A DNA stretch of 38,412 bases, from NCBI GenBank assembly GCA_022826585.1, contig JAJDUR010000013.1, forward strand, positions 1 to 38,412, given 5' to 3'. Made by a program: the position numbers and the translations under genes. Shown piece after piece: positions 27,941-35,269 of this stretch. The notes under the pieces were generated by a model that saw only the letters and a program-made list of their open reading frames with translations, was not told the DNA's origin and made no database searches. How positions within the stretch are numbered: position 1 is the stretch's first letter; each line of letters opens with the position of its first letter. This DNA is from Dehalococcoidia bacterium (GTDB taxonomy: Bacteria > Chloroflexota > Dehalococcoidia > Tepidiformales > Tepidiformaceae).

Positions 27941-30298
27941 CTAGCTCAGAATGCCATCTCCCACGAGGGCGCCGATCTCCTCCGGCCCCATCCCCAGCAG
28001 CTCCGTGAGCACGTCGAACGTGTCCGCTCCCAGGGATCGAGCCGCGTACGCGGTCGTCGGCCGCTGGCCGTCGATGAAGGCGGGGAAGCGCTCCGCTCCC
28101 TGCTCGCCCTCGTCTTCCGTGGGAATGGTCCCGATGAACGAGCGTGCGGCCAGGTGCGGGTCGACCGTCGCGATATCGCCGCCGTCCTGCACCGCGCCCG
28201 CGGCGATGCCCCGCGCCTGGCACGCTTCCATGACCTCGTAGCGGTCCTGCCCGGCCGTCCAGGCGGCCACTCGGTCGTCGAGCGCGTCCTGGTTGGCGAT
28301 GCGCGCCTCGTGCGTGAAGAAGCGCGGGTCGTCGGCCAGCTCGGGGGCGCCCATCACCTCGCAGAGCGCCCGCCACTGCTCGTCCCCCCGCACCGCGATC
28401 GCCACCCAGCGGTCCTCGCCCCGTGCGGGATAGATGCCGTGCGGCGCCCAGGCGTCGAACGGATGCCGGTTCGCCACCGGCTGCGGGTCGACCCCGTTCG
28501 CGAAGTAGTCGAGGAAGGCGGGGCCCATCAGTCCCAACCCCAGCTCGTACTGGGCCACGTCGACGTCCAGCCCCTGCCCCGTACGGCGCCGGTGCTCCAC
28601 CCCCTCGAGGATGCCCAGCGCCGCCGCCACCCCGCTCAGGTGGTCCGTGAGCGAGTAGCCGAAGCCGATGTCCTGCCGTCCCGGCACGTTCGTCAGGTAG
28701 GTCAGCCCCGTGATCGCGTGGATCGTCGGCGCGAAGGTCACGAAGTCGCGCCACGGCCCCGAATTCCCCATGCCCCCCATCGCCACCACCGTCACGCCCG
28801 GCGCCGTCTCCACCAGACCCTTCCGGCTGAGCCCCCAGCGCGCGAGCACGCCCGCGCTGAAGTTGTCGATGATGGCGTCGCATTCGCCCGCGAGGCGGCG
28901 CGCCAGTTCCTGCGCCTCCTCCCGCCGCATGTCGAGGGCGAGGTTCCGCTTGTTCCGGTTCCACGAGAGGTAGTACGGGTGGTTGAGCGTGTTCGCCCCG
29001 GCGTTGCGCGCCGCCGTCCCCACCTTGATCACGTCCGCCCCGAGGTCCGCGAGCACGCGCGTCCCGAACGGTCCCGCCAGCACGTGCGTGAAGTCGAGCA
29101 CTCGCAGCCCCGCCAGCGGCTTCCCGGCCGAGGGCTCGCCGGGAATCGCCTCCAGGTCCGGCCGAGCGCTCCATGCCACCTCCTCGACCCGAGCCGGCGG
29201 CCCGGGTGCGGGCCCGTCGGCGTCGGTCGTCAGCAGCCGCCCGGGGAAGGGCACGCTGCCGAACTCGTCCACCTCCCGCTCCTGGAAATACCCGCGCGCC
29301 TCGATCTGGGGCGTCGCCACCACCTTGCTCACGGGCCACACCGCCCCGAACGGCAGCCGGCGCCGCTGCGCCTCCATGAACAGGTCATCCGCGTTGTTCT
29401 TCGCCGTCCACTCCCGCAGGACGCTCATCACGTGCGGCATCTGCTTCACGAGCGCGATCAGGTCCGGGAACTCCTCGCGATCGTTCAGGTCCGCCGCCGA
29501 GTCGCTCTCCTCCAGCCACGGGATGAGCTTGTCGATGAGACCGAGCGAGGGCGTCACCATCAGCCCGTTGCCGTCCCTATCCGGGTAGAGCTCGTAGCCG
29601 CCGCTCCAGTGCAGGCTCCCCTGGCGCTGCGCGATCTGCGTCGTCCAGCGGCCCCCGTCTGGCCAGAACCACTGCATCAGCATCTGCTCGGTGTTCGCCG
29701 TCAGCGTCTCGTGACTCGAGAGGTCGATGTGGCAGCCCTTCCCGCTGGAATCGCGCAGCCGCACGCCGGCGAGCGCGCAGCAGGCCGCGTACAGCCCGAC
29801 CGTGTGCGCCGTCTGGTTGCCGTACCCGGTCAGCGGAGGCGTCTCGGGCGTCCCCGTGATCGATGCCGCCCCGCAGAGCGCCGTCGCCACCAGGTCGTTG
29901 ACCGCCAGCCCCGCCCAGGGCCCCTCGTGCCCCATGGGCGTCACCGAGAGCCGCACCAGCGACGGAAACGCCTCCCGGAGCGCGTCTCCGTCGAAGGGAG
30001 CGTCGCCGGCCTTCCAGTCCTCGATGAGCAGGTCCGCCCCGGCGAGCAGGTCACGGCCTTCGTCGCCCGCGAGGTCGAAGTGCACGACGCGCTTGCCCGC
30101 GTTGTACCAGGTCGCCTGGATTGAGACGCCGCTCTCGCCGAAGAACGGCGGCTCCCGCTCCAGCTCGTCCCCGCCCGGCGGGACCACCCGCACCACGTCG
30201 GCCCCGCCGTCGGCGAGCAGCCGTCCGGCGAAGGCGCCCGCCCAGCCCGCCTGCTCGACTACGCGGAGCCCTGCCAGCGGTGTGCTCGTGCGCTCCAT
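27941..30298 (-). CDS. Tandem-fused CaiB/BaiF (class III) CoA-transferase
   Basis: At 785 residues this is two family III CoA-transferase units in one chain. Half one (about 8-390) begins PLAGLRVVEQAGWAGAFAGRLLADGGADVVRV and half two (about 395-780) begins KPLAGLRVLDFTHVLAGPFGTRVLADLGADVIKV. Half two keeps the CoA-binding NRNKRNLALDM block, and half one has a degraded version (YNAGKRVVHFDLA). The position of the covalent Asp of formyl-CoA transferase appears to be Glu in both halves (DVAQYELG and DLSSHETL, by eye). Family members move CoA between carboxylic acids, often in carnitine, bile acid or aromatic catabolism. The substrate is unknown. The ATG is 8 nt after TACGAT. It is divergent from the DUF1538 operon. 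Confidence 0.9.
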   Translation of the reverse strand: MERTSTPLAGLRVVEQAGWAGAFAGRLLADGGADVVRVVPPGGDELEREPPFFGESGVSIQATWYNAGKRVVHFDLAGDEGRDLLAGADLLIEDWKAGDAPFDGDALREAFPSLVRLSVTPMGHEGPWAGLAVNDLVATALCGAASITGTPETPPLTGYGNQTAHTVGLYAACCALAGVRLRDSSGKGCHIDLSSHETLTANTEQMLMQWFWPDGGRWTTQIAQRQGSLHWSGGYELYPDRDGNGLMVTPSLGLIDKLIPWLEESDSAADLNDREEFPDLIALVKQMPHVMSVLREWTAKNNADDLFMEAQRRRLPFGAVWPVSKVVATPQIEARGYFQEREVDEFGSVPFPGRLLTTDADGPAPGPPARVEEVAWSARPDLEAIPGEPSAGKPLAGLRVLDFTHVLAGPFGTRVLADLGADVIKVGTAARNAGANTLNHPYYLSWNRNKRNLALDMRREEAQELARRLAGECDAIIDNFSAGVLARWGLSRKGLVETAPGVTVVAMGGMGNSGPWRDFVTFAPTIHAITGLTYLTNVPGRQDIGFGYSLTDHLSGVAAALGILEGVEHRRRTGQGLDVDVAQYELGLGLMGPAFLDYFANGVDPQPVANRHPFDAWAPHGIYPARGEDRWVAIAVRGDEQWRALCEVMGAPELADDPRFFTHEARIANQDALDDRVAAWTAGQDRYEVMEACQARGIAAGAVQDGGDIATVDPHLAARSFIGTIPTEDEGEQGAERFPAFIDGQRPTTAYAARSLGADTFDVLTELLGMGPEEIGALVGDGILS

Positions 30299-30388: not shown

Positions 30389-30417
30389 TTGACCTGCTTC
30401 GCGCCGCTTCGTACGGT
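30389..30417 (+). promoter_or_regulatory. Predicted promoter of the DUF1538-PII-CBS operon
   Basis: TTGACC (30389-30394), exactly 17 nt, TACGGT (30412-30417). This is one of the best-formed promoters in the window. It predicts a start near 30424 and a leader of about 25 nt before the ATG at 30448. Confidence 0.65.
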
Positions 30418-30447
30418 GTAGCCGCGCCGCGCAGGCCCACCGAACCC

Positions 30448-31209
30448 ATGCAGCACACGCGCGAGGAGCCTGGTTTGCCGCGATTCGCGTTGGCCATGGC
30501 GAAGCAGATTCTGGGCGCGCTTCGGGATCTGGCGCCCATCTTCGCCGTCATCGCCTTCTTCCAGGTCGTCGTGCTGCAACAGCCCTTCCCCGATGTCGCC
30601 GACGTCGTGGTCGGGCTGGTCTGCGTCGTCCTCGGGCTGGCGCTCTTCATCCAGGGGCTGGAGAGCGGGCTCTTCCCGCTGGGCGAGGCGTTGGCCCAGG
30701 GGATGGCGCGCAAGGGAAGCGCAACGGCGCTGCTGGCGCTGGCCTTCTGTCTCGGCTTCGGCACCACCGTGGCCGAGCCCGCCCTGATCGCCGTGGCCGC
30801 CAAGGGCGCCGAGGTTGCGGCCGAGGCGCAGTTCATCGGCGAGAGCCAGGCCGCCCAGGACCGCTACGCCTTCGAGCTGCGCATGGTCGTGGCCGTCGCC
30901 GTCGGCCTCGCCATCGTCCTGGGCGTGCTGCGCATCCTCAAGGGCTGGCCCATCCACCGCTTCATCATCGGCGGCTACGTGCTGGTCATGGCCATGACGG
31001 TGTTCGCACCCGAGGAGATCGTGGGCGTCGCCTACGACTCCGGCGGGGTCACGACCAGCACCATCACAGTGCCACTGATCACCGCCCTGGGCGTGGGCCT
31101 CGCCTCCACCATCCGGGGCCGCAGCCCGATGCTCGACGGCTTCGGGCTGATCGCCTTCGCCAGCCTCACGCCCATGATCTGCGTGCTGGGCTACGGGATG
31201 GTGGTGTGA
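30448..31209 (+). CDS. DUF1538 integral membrane protein, first copy
   Basis: A 253-residue membrane protein with about seven hydrophobic helices. The DUF1538 signatures are [16 protein letters not shown] in helix 3 and [16 protein letters not shown] before helix 6, followed by [20 protein letters not shown]. The polar motifs inside membrane segments ([16 protein letters not shown]) look like a substrate or ion path. Established function: none that I know. It is first in a four-gene operon with a second DUF1538 protein, a PII-like protein and a CBS protein, all overlapping by 1-4 bp, which suggests a regulated transport complex. The loop at about 110-135 ([25 protein letters not shown]) is longer than the equivalent in the second copy. 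An internal ATG at 30496 is an alternative start. Confidence 0.88.
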
Positions 31210-31997
31210 TGCTGGACTTCCTCGCCCGCTTCGGCGAAACCCTCCTCTACACCCTGCGGGACGTGACCCCCATCGTCGTCATCCTCGTGCTGTTCCAGGT
31301 CGGTTTGCTGCGGCGCAAGCTGCCCAACATCAGGGGCATCGCCACCGGGTCGGTCATGGTGCTCCTGGGGCTGGCCCTCTTCCTCATCGGGCTGGAGCAG
31401 GCGCTCTTCCCCATCGGCGAGACGATGGCGCGGCAGCTCGCCGAAACCGCCGGCGAGGTCGCGCGCGATGGCGTCGTGCGCTGGCAGGACTACTGGGTCG
31501 TGTACCTCTTCGCCGCCGCCGTCGGTTTTGCGACGACCGTCGCCGAGCCGGCCCTCATCGCCGTTTCGCTCAAGGCCAAAGAGGTTTCGGGCGGCGCCGT
31601 GAACCCCTGGGGCCTGCGCATCGCCGTGGCCGTGGGCGTCGCCATCGGCGTGTCGCTGGGGTGCTTCCGCATCGTGACGGGCACGGCCCTGCCGTGGTAC
31701 ATCGTGGCCGCCTACGTCGTCGTCATCGTGCAGACCTACCTGAGCGGCCGCACCATCATCCCGCTCGCCTACGACAGCGGCGGCGTCACCACCTCGACCG
31801 TCACCGTGCCGGTGGTGGCGGCCCTGGGGCTGGGCCTCGCCGCCAACGTCCCCGGCCGCAGCCCGCTCATCGACGGCTTCGGCCTCATCGCCTTCGCCAG
31901 TGTATTCCCCATCATGTCGGTATTAGGCTATGCCATCACCGCCGAGCAGGTGGCGCGCTGGCGCAATCGGAACGAACGCAAGGAGGGTGAGTCATGA
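31209..31997 (+). CDS. DUF1538 integral membrane protein, second copy
   Basis: A 262-residue paralogue of the preceding gene, with the same motifs in the same order: [33 protein letters not shown] and [21 protein letters not shown]. About seven membrane helices are seen, with a short basic C-terminal tail (RWRNRNERKEGES). Differences include a hydrophilic loop around 73-95 (MARQLAETAGEVARDGVVRWQDYW). The ATG at 31209 shares one base with the previous stop (TGATG). A GTG at 31206 in frame is an alternative. Paired copies fused end to end as separate genes suggest a heterodimer with pseudo-twofold symmetry. The PII-like gene begins within its stop codon region. Confidence 0.88.
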   Translation: MLDFLARFGETLLYTLRDVTPIVVILVLFQVGLLRRKLPNIRGIATGSVMVLLGLALFLIGLEQALFPIGETMARQLAETAGEVARDGVVRWQDYWVVYLFAAAVGFATTVAEPALIAVSLKAKEVSGGAVNPWGLRIAVAVGVAIGVSLGCFRIVTGTALPWYIVAAYVVVIVQTYLSGRTIIPLAYDSGGVTTSTVTVPVVAALGLGLAANVPGRSPLIDGFGLIAFASVFPIMSVLGYAITAEQVARWRNRNERKEGES

Positions 31998-32344
31998 AGA
32001 TGGCGCTGGTCGTCGCCATGGTGAGCGACGAGAAGACGAACCGCATCATCGAAGCGGCCCGCGAAGGCGGCGCCACCGGCGACACCATCATCAGCAGCGT
32101 GCGCGGCGAAGGACTGAAGCCCGGCAAGACCTTCCTCGGCCTGGATCTGGCGGCGAAACGCGACGTGGTGCTGTTCCTGGTGGCGGAGCCGAGGGCGCGG
32201 GACATCCTCGAGCGCATCGCCGTCGCCGGCGACATGGACGGCGAGAGCGGCGCCGGCATCGCCTTCCAGATCACCATCGAGGACGCCGTCGGCCTCTCCA
32301 CCCAGTTGCCCACCCTCATGGAAGAGTTGGAAGGCGCGCTATGA
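31994..32344 (+). CDS. Divergent PII-like signalling protein
   Basis: This 116-residue protein is aligned by eye with GlnB/GlnK: MKMALVVAMVSDEKTNRIIEAAREGGATGDTIISSVRGEG matches the first beta-alpha-beta unit and the V-(K/R)-G-x-G turn. The T-loop region (41-57, LKPGKTFLGLDLAAKRD) is short and lacks the Tyr51 that is uridylylated in classic PII. The B-loop is replaced by DMDGESGAGIAF without the Lys90-type phosphate contact. A nucleotide may bind in another way, or the protein may sense something else. AGGAGGG lies 7 nt before the ATG, which overlaps the DUF1538 stop (ATGA). By position it likely docks on the DUF1538 membrane pair, as GlnK does on AmtB or SbtB on SbtA. Confidence 0.82.
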   Translation: MKMALVVAMVSDEKTNRIIEAAREGGATGDTIISSVRGEGLKPGKTFLGLDLAAKRDVVLFLVAEPRARDILERIAVAGDMDGESGAGIAFQITIEDAVGLSTQLPTLMEELEGAL

Positions 32345-32751
32345 ACGATCAGGGCGACACCAGGGCGGTACGCGTGGCCGACGTCATGGGGTCGGAGGTG
32401 CACACGATCGACGGGCTGGCCACGGTGGCCGAGGCCGTGGCCACGATGAAGCGCCTGCACATCAGCTCGCTGGTGGTCAACCGGCGCCACGACGACGACG
32501 AGCTGGGGCTGATCACGGTCAGCGACCTGGCCCGCGAGGTCATCGCGCCCGACCGCGCGCCTGATCGCGTCAACGTCTACGAGATCATGTCGAAGCCGGC
32601 GCTGGCGGTGCGCTCGGGCATGCTGGCCCGCTACGCGGTGCGGCTGCTCGTGCGGTTCGGCGTTTCCCGCGCACTGGTCGTTGACGACGACGGCGCGCCC
32701 CTGGGCCTGGTCACGCTGCGCGACCTCGTGCTGGAGCAGGCCCCGGAGTAG
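32341..32751 (+). CDS. CBS-domain pair protein
   Basis: This 136-residue protein consists of two CBS motifs. The first runs about 10-70 (VADVMGSEVHTIDGLATVAEAVATMKRLHISSLVVN...GLITVSDLARE). The second runs about 78-134 (VYEIMSKPALAVRSGMLARYAVRLLVRFGVSRALVVDDDGAPLGLVTLRDLVLE). Such Bateman modules usually bind AMP, ATP or S-adenosyl ligands and gate enzymes, channels or transporters. The ATG overlaps the PII-like stop (ATGA). It is the last gene of the operon, convergent with the SDR pair, with 10 bp between stops. The combination with PII and DUF1538 implies energy or nucleotide control of the membrane proteins. Confidence 0.9.
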   Translation: MNDQGDTRAVRVADVMGSEVHTIDGLATVAEAVATMKRLHISSLVVNRRHDDDELGLITVSDLAREVIAPDRAPDRVNVYEIMSKPALAVRSGMLARYAVRLLVRFGVSRALVVDDDGAPLGLVTLRDLVLEQAPE

Positions 32752-32761
32752 CCGCCGGCCC

Positions 32762-33547
32762 CTACAGGTGGGCGGAGACGCCCCCGTCGACCCGGAACAC
32801 CTGCCCGCTCAGGAATCCCGCCGCGTCGCTCGCCAGCAGGACCGACAGCGCGCCGAGGCTCTCGGCCCCGCCGAAGCTCCGCATGGGGATGAAGCGCAGC
32901 AGCAGGTTCTCCGCGGGATCGTGGGCTCCGCGCCCGGGCGTCCAGTCCATCCAGCCCGTCGCGATGCTGTTCACCGTCACCGCCGGCGCCAGCTCCTGGC
33001 TCAGCGACGCCGCCAGCCCGAACACCCCTGCCTTCGCCGCCGCGTAGGCGCTCAGGTTGTTCACCCCCCGCTCCCCGAAGATGCTGTTGACGAAGATCAG
33101 CCGTCCCGTCTCCCCCTCGCCCAGCTCCCGCACCCACGCCCGCGCCGCGTAGAACGCCCCGCTCAGGTTCACCGCCTGCACGTTCGCGAACTCCGCGTCG
33201 CCCGTCTTCTCGATCGGCTTCGCCAGCGGCAGGTCGGCGTTGTAGACGAGCACCGAAGGAACGCCGAACTCCTTCACCAGCTGCCGCAGCCCCACCCGCA
33301 CGTTCGTCGGCAGGGTCACGTCCCAGCCCTGGCTGAAGGTCTCGCGTCCGAGCTGCCCGACCGCCCGGCTCGCGCGCTTCGCCGCCATCACCTCGTCGCC
33401 GTCCATCGTCGCCGAGGCCACGGCCACGTCCGCGCCAGCCTCCGCCAGCGCCTCCGTGATCACGCGTCCCGCGGGATTCGCGAACCCCACCACGAGCGCC
33501 CGCTTCCCGGTCAGGTCGTATCCCTCCTGCCGCTCCCAGTCAGCCAC
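32762..33547 (-). CDS. SDR-family protein with altered cofactor motifs
   Basis: This 261-residue short-chain dehydrogenase/reductase-like protein keeps the catalytic set Ser155 (IFVNSIF), Tyr168 and Lys172 (SAYAAAKAG) and the C-terminal FLSGQVFRVDGG. The usual TGxxxGxG turn is VGFANPAGR (20-28), and NNAG is YNAD (102-105), so cofactor binding is unusual. The GTG at 33547 overlaps the stop of the upstream SDR gene by 8 bp, which I take as the start. A longer in-frame extension of 17 basic residues lies inside the neighbour. The two SDRs form an operon. The substrate is unknown. Confidence 0.85.
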   Translation of the reverse strand: MADWERQEGYDLTGKRALVVGFANPAGRVITEALAEAGADVAVASATMDGDEVMAAKRASRAVGQLGRETFSQGWDVTLPTNVRVGLRQLVKEFGVPSVLVYNADLPLAKPIEKTGDAEFANVQAVNLSGAFYAARAWVRELGEGETGRLIFVNSIFGERGVNNLSAYAAAKAGVFGLAASLSQELAPAVTVNSIATGWMDWTPGRGAHDPAENLLLRFIPMRSFGGAESLGALSVLLASDAAGFLSGQVFRVDGGVSAHL

Positions 33548-34376
33548 GGGACCGCGCCTCCACCTCGTCCGGAGCGTACCCCGTGGGCGCGATGCCACCC
33601 ACCAAGCCGCCGCCGTCGATGGGATAGTTCGCCCCCGTCACGTAGCTGGAGGCGTCGCTGCAAAGGAAGAGCGCCAGCGGTCCCAGCTCCCACGCCTGCC
33701 CCAGCCGTCGCGCCGTGATGTAGCTCCCCCGCTTCCGGATCACCTCCGCTTCCTCCTCCGTCTCCGTCGGGCGCTGCTCGACGAGCCCGGGCGTGATGCA
33801 GTTCACCCGGATGCCGTCCCGCGCGACCGCGCTCGCCACCGTCTGCGTGAAGTTGATGACGCCCGCCTTCGCCGCGGCGTAAGTCGGGCTCTGCGGCGTC
33901 GCGCGCATGCCCATCCCGCTCGCGATGTTGAGGATGACCCCGCTCCCCTGCGGCCGCATGTGCCGCAGCGCTGCCCGTGTGCAGTAGAACGTCCCGTTCA
34001 GGTTCACCGCGATCCCGCCGAGCCACTCTGCGTCCTCGATCTCCCACACCGCCTTGCCCCGCCCCGGCGAATCCCCGATGCCCGCGTTGTTCACCATGAT
34101 GTCGAGCCTGCCGAACCGCTCGACCGTCGCGTCGATGAGCCGGTCGCACTCCGCGCTCGACGTGACGTCCGTCGCGACTGTCAGGGGCTCGCGCCCGCCC
34201 TGCTCCGCCAGGAACGCGGCCGTCTCCTCGAGCTGCCCCGCCGTTCGCGCCGCGATGCACACCTCCGCCCCCGCCCGCATGAGCGACCGCGCCATCTCCC
34301 GCCCCAGCCCCCGGCTCCCCCCGGTGACGATCGCCACCCGCCGCGGCGGCCCATCCAGACGCAACGCTTCCAGCAC
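33540..34376 (-). CDS. Short-chain dehydrogenase/reductase (SDR), classical type
   Basis: This 278-residue Rossmann-fold oxidoreductase has TGGSRGLG (18-25), NNAG (96-99), the catalytic Ser153, Tyr166 and Lys170 (YAAAK) and a C-terminal YVTGANYPIDGGGLVG. Arg44 after strand 2 (CIAARTAG) hints at NADP preference. The GTG at 34376 has a GGAGGAGGGG site upstream and is favoured over an in-frame ATG 105 bp further up, which would add a tail without family similarity. It overlaps the next SDR gene by 8 bp, so they are translated together. A TATAGT -10 lies 28 nt upstream. The substrate is unknown; the nearby CoA-transferase allows a role in acyl or small-molecule catabolism. Confidence 0.9.
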   Translation of the reverse strand: MLEALRLDGPPRRVAIVTGGSRGLGREMARSLMRAGAEVCIAARTAGQLEETAAFLAEQGGREPLTVATDVTSSAECDRLIDATVERFGRLDIMVNNAGIGDSPGRGKAVWEIEDAEWLGGIAVNLNGTFYCTRAALRHMRPQGSGVILNIASGMGMRATPQSPTYAAAKAGVINFTQTVASAVARDGIRVNCITPGLVEQRPTETEEEAEVIRKRGSYITARRLGQAWELGPLALFLCSDASSYVTGANYPIDGGGLVGGIAPTGYAPDEVEARSRG

Positions 34377-34404
34377 GTACCCCTCCTCCTGGTCGGTCGC
34401 TGGG

Positions 34405-34410
34405 ACTATA
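34405..34410 (-). promoter_or_regulatory. Predicted -10 element of the SDR pair (TATAGT)
   Basis: TATAGT on the minus strand matches 5 of 6 consensus bases and is 28 nt before the SDR GTG. The -35 position is not convincing. It lies in the 38-bp gap after the CoiA-like gene. Confidence 0.45.
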
Positions 34411-34414
34411 CGTC

Positions 34415-35269
34415 CTAGCTCGCAGCCTGCTGGGGCGTCGGCCATAGCCATGGCATGCGGTCCAAACGCTGGGAGTCGCACCCCAAGGTGCTGTCGTGAG
34501 CGAACAGGTAGTGGCCACGACGCGGACTCGGCATTCCGAGCAGAGAGAGAACTCCCTCCGAGTCGTCGTCGTTGTAGTCAAGGAACGCATCTACGAGGTC
34601 GCCGTTCGAGTCGTGGAACGGCTCGAAGACCGTGGCAGGAAAGTCCTCGACCAGACGGGCCATCTGCCTCGACTCTTCGTCGAACTCGGGGATGTCGTCG
34701 TACCACCGTCGCTGTCTGTTGTGGAGGGTGGCTTGCTCGCTCTCTCCATCGAGCACATCGACTACGAACAGAGGGATGTCAGCATCTCGGGCGTGCCTCC
34801 ACATCTTGCTGCTCAGGTTGGACTTTCTGAACTCGATGAACGCGATCGGCTGGCCATCTGCTCCCACGATCGTCAGATCGGGCCTGAGACCGTTACCCAA
34901 CCGCTGTTCGACGACCACGGACGTGACCCCATGGAGCAGGTCGTACGTGTGGGGCCTCGAACACTGTCGACAGTTCCAGACGATCTCCCTGAAGAAGGGC
35001 AGGGTACGCAGATATGCGAACCAGGCCTCCTTCACCTTGCGATGCTCAACTGACTCCCCGGGGGGCCTGCAGTCCTTCTGCCTTGGCATGTGGGCAAAGG
35101 ATGAGCGACGGCCGGACCGATGGACCGGGTAGAGGCGGCACTGCTCATGGTGGGCGATGCCTATGTATCTCTCCCCACTCTTCGCCGCCTCGATGGGGGT
35201 GGGGGAGCCATCTTTCGCAACAGCTGTAGTGATTATGTCGGGGACCACTGTGGGTGCCTCCTTCTTCAC
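34415..35269 (-). CDS. CoiA-like / PD-(D/E)XK nuclease-like protein, lower GC
   Basis: A 284-residue protein of uncertain family. The N-terminal part has a CoiA-like tone (SGERYIGIAHHEQCRLYPVHRSG...FAH) and His76/Lys78 (EHRKVKEAW). A CxxC pair follows (Cys100, Cys103 in WNCRQCSRPH). The central block resembles a PD-(D/E)XK core: Glu121, RPDL with Asp131, then IEFRKS (Glu146, Arg148 in place of Lys), then a strand PLFVVDV. The C-terminal part is acidic. I chose the GTG at 35269 because TAAGGG lies 5 nt upstream. GC content and third-position GC are visibly lower than in its neighbours, suggesting acquisition. It is divergent from the sbcD-sbcC genes. Function unproven: a DNA-processing nuclease is plausible. 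Confidence 0.6.
   Translation of the reverse strand: MKKEAPTVVPDIITTAVAKDGSPTPIEAAKSGERYIGIAHHEQCRLYPVHRSGRRSSFAHMPRQKDCRPPGESVEHRKVKEAWFAYLRTLPFFREIVWNCRQCSRPHTYDLLHGVTSVVVEQRLGNGLRPDLTIVGADGQPIAFIEFRKSNLSSKMWRHARDADIPLFVVDVLDGESEQATLHNRQRRWYDDIPEFDEESRQMARLVEDFPATVFEPFHDSNGDLVDAFLDYNDDDSEGVLSLLGMPSPRRGHYLFAHDSTLGCDSQRLDRMPWLWPTPQQAAS

Follow-up and report, generated by a model that had tools for sequence, protein, structure and literature searches.

Four genes that lie end to end in the genome of a Dehalococcoidia bacterium, coding for two DUF1538 membrane proteins, a PII-like protein and a pair of CBS domains, raise the question of what the membrane proteins carry and what the soluble proteins do beside them. 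The genes are in a stretch of 38,412 nucleotides (hereafter the window; contig JAJDUR010000013.1, positions 1 to 38,412) of a 2.7-Mb draft genome in 127 contigs. An earlier note made from the letters of this DNA had proposed a DUF1538 carrier or channel of two chains, to which PII and CBS report nucleotide or energy state.

An operon built on a UmpAB-like pair

ORF and Pfam analysis of the window placed all four genes, in that order, at the positions given for them on the forward strand: a UmpA-like DUF1538 membrane protein of 244 aa (30475..31209; PF07556, 4.5e-66), a UmpB-like DUF1538 membrane protein of 262 aa (31209..31997; PF07556, 1e-63), a UmpAB-associated PII protein of 116 aa (31994..32344; PF00543, 3.9e-9), and a CBS-pair protein of 136 aa (32341..32751; two PF00571 stretches, 6.5e-20). 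The two DUF1538 genes overlap by 1 bp (TGATG), and both the second DUF1538 gene and PII, and PII and CBS, overlap by 4 bp (ATGA), just as the claim of 1-4 bp overlaps had it. Upstream lies a probable promoter, TTGACC-17-TACGGT (30389..30417, +), whose position and spacing of 17 stand as first described. The pattern TTGNC[CT]-17-TANNNT recurs upstream in 14 of 27 sequences (the window and 26 near relatives, which are not independent), with a mean of 0.04 and a maximum of 1 in shuffles, and the promoter is for this reason probably real; the description of it as strong had to be given up, since it has 8 of 12 consensus letters by our own count and no site passes a generic sigma-70 scan. A Shine-Dalgarno sequence, GAGGAG (30463..30468, +), precedes a TTG codon at 30475 in the sequence and in the upstream-region alignment. 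The umpA-like gene probably starts at this TTG and not at the ATG at 30448, which would give a protein of 253 aa, because relatives L014 and L020 have in-frame stops right before the aligned TTG.

Divergent from the operon, and starting about 90 bp from the umpA promoter, is a gene (27941-30298, −) for a protein of 785 aa in which two stretches belong to CoA-transferase family III. On the other side, two overlapping short-chain dehydrogenase genes (32762-33598, − and 33540-34481, −) face the operon.

The two membrane proteins score 222.6 and 214.9 bits against PF07556 (gathering score, 22.6), and their best NCBIfam matches are the models for UmpA and UmpB (the NF041627/NF041628 pair), at 363.2 and 314.4 bits, respectively. 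Both scores are under the curated equivalog cut-offs of 490 and 500, so we describe the window pair as a UmpAB homologue, not as an equivalog, and its cation substrate is assigned by homology. UmpAB of Halomonas zhaodongensis is likewise encoded by a pair of homologous DUF1538 genes whose stop and start codons overlap by 1 base, and according to the available text of its description it is a Na+(Li+,K+)/H+ antiporter of two different subunits: co-immunoprecipitation showed UmpA and UmpB to form a heterodimer, antiport was recorded at pH 6.5-9.5, everted-vesicle assays gave antiport of Na+, Li+, and K+, and UmpAB alone gives antiport in E. coli (PMC5484666). The statement in the earlier note that DUF1538 has no assigned substrate was therefore wrong, and an undescribed transporter is rejected, as the DUF1538 pairs are homologues of a described one (PMC5484666, NCBIfam); the proposal of a heterodimeric carrier was right as to the family, whose one studied member is such a carrier. 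By these sequence relationships, the window pair would be a two-subunit cation/proton antiporter. In the parts of the wider literature available to us, a machine-learning study counts DUF1538 among the key pH-adaptation domains (PMC13255231), and brackish and marine cable bacteria have UmpAB homologues, read there as salt adaptation (PMC10030654, PMC12093952).

The Halomonas and window loci differ in what follows umpB. The 4.2-kb clone consisted of ORF1-4, with umpAB as ORF3-4 and no ORF 3′ of umpB (PMC5484666, available text), whereas the window operon continues with PII and CBS; a term search of the main text of that paper, as available, found none of 'PII', 'P-II', and 'CBS'. No genome searched yielded a UmpB that exceeds the equivalog cut-off (0 of 50, then 0 of 394), and we therefore let locus L235 (genome G1529) stand in for the Halomonas locus. 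Its UmpB is the closest found to the characterised UmpB model, at 475 bits, the next best seen having 379; a search of a plasmid collection gave no UmpB relative. In L235, PII and CBS genes lie directly downstream of UmpB, which suggests, short of proof, that the Halomonas umpAB operon is similar and also has PII and CBS.

The two polar motifs of the membrane proteins had been described as lying inside helices. They do hold invariant residues (alignments of 44 and 42 sequences), but the structure predicted for the second protein places them across helix breaks and not within continuous helices. In this AF2 model of UmpB (44 sequences; pLDDT 85.8, pTM 0.76), the helix breaks fall at the conserved AEP and YDSGGVTTS motifs, and may hold ion sites. 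Comparison of the model with solved structures using Foldseek found no resemblance (best E 0.48), and an inverted repeat in UmpB is not supported, because sequence profiles of its halves fail to align with each other.

A divergent PII protein tied to DUF1538

The 116-aa protein scores 37.2 bits against PF00543 (gathering score, 25). Its AF2 model has a ferredoxin-like fold (pLDDT 91.3), and the top PDB fold matches include TTHA0516, CPII, SbtB, and GlnK (E 1e-6 to 2e-6), of which CPII and SbtB are called PII-like in their PDB titles and described there as bound to bicarbonate or as regulating carbon. Residues that do not vary across 37 sequences include T15, GATG 26-29, T31, R37-G38, G40, F47, and G49, and further along G88, A90, G100, and Q104. 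The T-loop stretch 37-50 (RGEGL...KTFxGL) is conserved above average, although not uniquely so, as 7 of 103 14-residue segments, itself included, are at least as conserved. We take R38, K90, R101, and R103 to be the canonical phosphate-binding residues of PII proteins, and Tyr51 of the T-loop to be a canonical feature of GlnB/GlnK. In an alignment with canonical PII proteins, the window PII has L41, I89, G100, and S102 at the positions of these four residues, with position 100 being Gly in 37/37 sequences and the position aligned to R103 being variable; it contains no tyrosine, and thus has neither the phosphate residues nor the Tyr51 of a canonical GlnB/GlnK. As these phosphate ligands are replaced, nucleotide sensing by the classical PII site appears doubtful. 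The window's genome has two further PII genes, both better-scoring and one of them beside an ammonium transporter (L004), so the operon PII is a third, divergent one.

Among known systems, GlnK-AmtB serves as a works-like model, in that there too the PII gene adjoins its membrane client; the window differs in that the client is of an antiporter family, the T-loop is short, and the canonical phosphate ligands are replaced. SbtB is likewise the PII-like partner of an ion transporter, SbtA (PMC10710835, available text), and is among the top fold matches along with CPII, but neither is named among the 34 solved sequences from the PII profile search, and the client family in the window has no solved-structure relative.

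We examined 215 loci with profile models for DUF1538, PII, and CBS; 80 of these are the best 80 of 371 public relatives, and the others come from group samples. We excluded eleven loci with <600 nt downstream, of which six have PII and five lack it. PII adjoins DUF1538 in 203 of the remaining 204 loci, which all have ≥600 nt downstream, or 195 of 196 after removal of duplicates, by a PII model that was trained on the same loci; Pfam was used as an independent check, and P-II was confirmed in 31/31 and 22/23 members of two samples (E up to 0.01). In these 203 loci, PII is within 356 nt of the DUF1538 match, and downstream of it except in L220, where the PII gene is upstream. The sole exception among the 204 is L211, a lone DUF1538 gene. 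L211 has no partner subunit, PII, or CBS, and another contig of the same genome, L212, carries DUF1538-PII-CBS.

The gene order, by whose persistence beyond close relatives the earlier note had proposed to judge its case, is kept in several phyla. The nearest public relatives, among the best 80 of 371, are metagenome bins titled Chloroflexi or Dehalococcoidia with up to 92% UmpB identity, and bins with DUF1538-PII are titled Chloroflexi, Proteobacteria, Bacteroidales, Gemmatimonadetes, and Latescibacterota, the group names being those in the record titles. The gammaproteobacterial sample consists of 60 stretches from 57 of the 89 genomes with a match, picked by their place in the score lists and not by their neighbours, and of one more from G311. 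The Bacteroidota-type sample covers 8 of 11 genomes with a match (G303 being L082; two matches below the cut-off were left out), and the alphaproteobacterial sample 19 of 20 genomes, the remaining one being L056. Twelve stretches represent 11 of 14 genomes in the phylum of G309 (the other three are L034, L037, and L042), and 15 stretches represent 14 of 95 genomes in the order of G301, several of them picked for a high score or a fused look. For Chloroflexota, 20 of 26 genomes were fetched; one of those remaining is the window's own genome, and the other five have short loci, all with PII. None of 14 control genomes, by which alone Firmicutes, Actinobacteria, and Archaea were sampled, has DUF1538.

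The association also holds at the level of whole genomes. A profile search found DUF1538 in 26 of 301 Chloroflexota genomes, and the PII subfamily (profile A2, E up to 1e-6) in 25 of these 26 and in 0 of the 275 without DUF1538 (Fisher 1.2e-35; related genomes are not independent); at most 16 PII candidates per genome were scored, and a missed copy in a DUF1538-less genome is possible. Counted by genus, the subfamily is present in 13/13 with DUF1538 and 0/166 without. The one miss is G181 (L229), in which the contig ends 116 nt past the DUF1538 match. PII thus accompanies DUF1538 more often than by chance, and is genetically linked to the transporter (195/196 distinct loci; 25/26 versus 0/275 genomes). 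Gene order and co-occurrence argue, with more force than the earlier note could claim, that PII is very probably a dedicated regulator of the DUF1538 pair, as surmised from this one operon; the CBS gene, which had been given the same standing, is less constant than PII.

Replaceable CBS pairs, fusions, and multi-PII chains

The CBS-pair protein matches PF00571 in two stretches (71.6 bits), and has two CBS domains accordingly. Its best solved relative is CBS-CP12 (5nmu, 4.2e-17), which we take to bind AMP. CBS-CP12, MpfA, and MgtE likewise contain a CBS pair, and nucleotides control MpfA and MgtE through their CBS domains (PMC10710835, available text); unlike in MpfA and MgtE, the pair in the window is not a domain of the transporter but stands alone beside a PII gene.

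Of the 197 loci whose sequence extends for 1300 nt or more downstream, 151 have CBS, 32 have at least two PII matches, 1 has both, and 15 have neither, so that by our own model CBS is missing in 46 of the 197. In two of the 32, L175 and L223, the matches are two parts of one PII; L175 is the one locus with both, and L223 belongs with the loci that have neither. The 15 include L216, which has a CBS pair by Pfam, L217, which looks like L216 by eye, the fusion L239 described below, and the lone gene L211. In the others of the 15, PII apparently stands alone: L044, L048, L051, L062, L063, L074, L079, L176, L218, L219, and L248. The CBS pair of L216 (5832-6305, +) is a divergent one that follows PII in a relative of the window's class, and is missed by our CBS model and found by Pfam. 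CBS is therefore frequent but can be replaced, in most such cases by a further PII domain. This suggests that many of these systems need a second sensor, which may be of either kind.

Fusions join the parts of the operon in several ways. UmpA-UmpB-PII is a single ORF with long linkers in L222 (Chloroflexota sample, 745 aa) and in L239 (gammaproteobacterial order sample, 650 aa), and these are the two clean fusions; in L239, Pfam sees two DUF1538 stretches and P-II, and in L222, the fused PII part has no Pfam P-II match at E 0.1. L172, with UmpB and PII in one frame, was dropped as a clean fusion, as a one-base change or an assembly error could explain it, given that the usual overlap at the UmpB/PII junction is an out-of-frame one. 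The hydrophilic C-terminus of UmpB, which may matter according to its authors (PMC5484666, available text), is also the end to which the natural fusions join PII.

In 42 of the 215 loci, a single frame contains two DUF1538 matches, and such a fused UmpA-UmpB is accompanied by one PII and CBS in L121, L147, L154, L214, L236, and L240-L244. Three PII-like domains share one frame in eight loci (L162 and L186-L192), all adjoining a fused UmpA-UmpB, and two in seven loci; from its length, we guess at a third PII domain in L198-L200. With hhalign, the middle domain of the multi-PII chains aligns to the PII profile at E 3.4e-10, and the chains in L187 and L191 have no Pfam P-II match at E 0.1, so that the PII calls in L187, L191, and L222 come from our own models and, for the chains, from the profile-profile match as well. 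It is possible that the triple-PII chains are single-chain PII trimers. Genome G311 (loci L069 and L193), titled Thiobacillus, has a split UmpAB-PII-CBS operon together with a fused UmpAB with two PII genes.

A proposed PII-regulated antiporter and its alternatives

We favor the reading, with a probability of about 0.65, that the operon codes for a PII-regulated UmpAB cation (Na+/Li+/K+)/proton antiporter together with soluble proteins that control it, the CBS protein being a second sensor. PII control is proposed because of the conserved operon, the co-occurrence of a dedicated PII subfamily, and the natural UmpA-UmpB-PII fusions. UmpA and UmpB would form the two-subunit antiporter, with heterodimer and antiport as reported for the Halomonas member of the family (PMC5484666, available text), and PII and CBS would be its control unit. 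We predict that PII forms a trimer, which uses its short T-loop to bind the cytoplasmic side of UmpAB close to the UmpB C-terminus, and that the docked PII holds or releases the antiporter, with either direction of control being conceivable. The fusions L222 and L239 would speak indirectly for such physical binding. The CBS pair, or elsewhere a further PII domain, would give a second signal, probably the adenine nucleotide state. A more elaborate version, to which we give somewhat less than even odds, is that the PII subfamily is the dedicated gate of this antiporter family, acting through a rebuilt ligand site that is not the classical ATP/2-oxoglutarate one, with input from CBS or a further PII, and in some lineages as an asymmetric trimer of three fused PII domains on a fused UmpA-UmpB.

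An alternative, unlikely but the strongest of those we considered, is that the DUF1538 pair is indeed under the control of PII and CBS, but that its natural job is a different one, concerning for example another ion or bicarbonate, and that the antiport in E. coli is the behavior of an unregulated pair without its partners. The lack of an ORF after umpB in the tested clone (PMC5484666, available text), the presence of CPII and SbtB among the top fold relatives of PII, and window scores below the equivalog cut-offs are all consistent with this; against it are the Na+, Li+, and K+ antiport of the everted vesicles (PMC5484666) and the salt-adaptation reading of the cable bacterial homologues (PMC10030654, PMC12093952), insofar as their available texts describe them. 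Less probable still, and to our minds quite unlikely, PII and perhaps CBS could be structural or assembly subunits of UmpAB without a sensing role. A PII that has lost canonical phosphate ligands and retained a conserved loop, and that is near-constant and sometimes fused, could be so explained; but UmpAB is active without PII and CBS in E. coli (PMC5484666, available text), so that its own PII is not needed for antiport, though E. coli does have PII-family proteins (control list). Moreover, the second partner varies between a CBS pair, PII, and multi-PII chains, which fits sensors better than fixed parts. Canonical PII proteins have many soluble targets, and PII and CBS might merely share the operon while acting on another target, an enzyme or transcription, but the whole-genome co-occurrence and the natural fusions make this very improbable. 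We therefore return to the PII-regulated antiporter.

The antiporter family was already known, and its near-constant PII pairing across phyla was not found in the literature searched. A search of the open literature, with subscription papers mostly outside its coverage, found no link of PII or CBS to DUF1538 or UmpAB; the available texts of open DUF1538/UmpAB papers mention neither PII nor CBS, bar 'PII' in a sequence motif of PMC7221264. GlnK-AmtB and SbtB-SbtA are both discussed in a review of how transporters are modulated, in whose available text a term search found neither 'UmpAB' nor 'DUF1538' (PMC10710835). If the favored reading is true, the regulator was absent from the only functional study of DUF1538 that we found (PMC5484666, available text).

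In the Chloroflexota sample, the PII subfamily was found in nearly all genomes with the antiporter family and in no others. Control of nitrogen and carbon uptake is the best-known role of PII proteins, and the pairing described here suggests that salt and pH balance are under PII control as well. If the three-PII chains are what they seem, they would lend themselves to the study of how PII trimers become asymmetric. If the PII-regulated antiporter is correct, PII control would extend to ion and pH homeostasis in many bacteria, and, should PII be the gate itself, PII signalling would directly control Na+/K+ and pH homeostasis.
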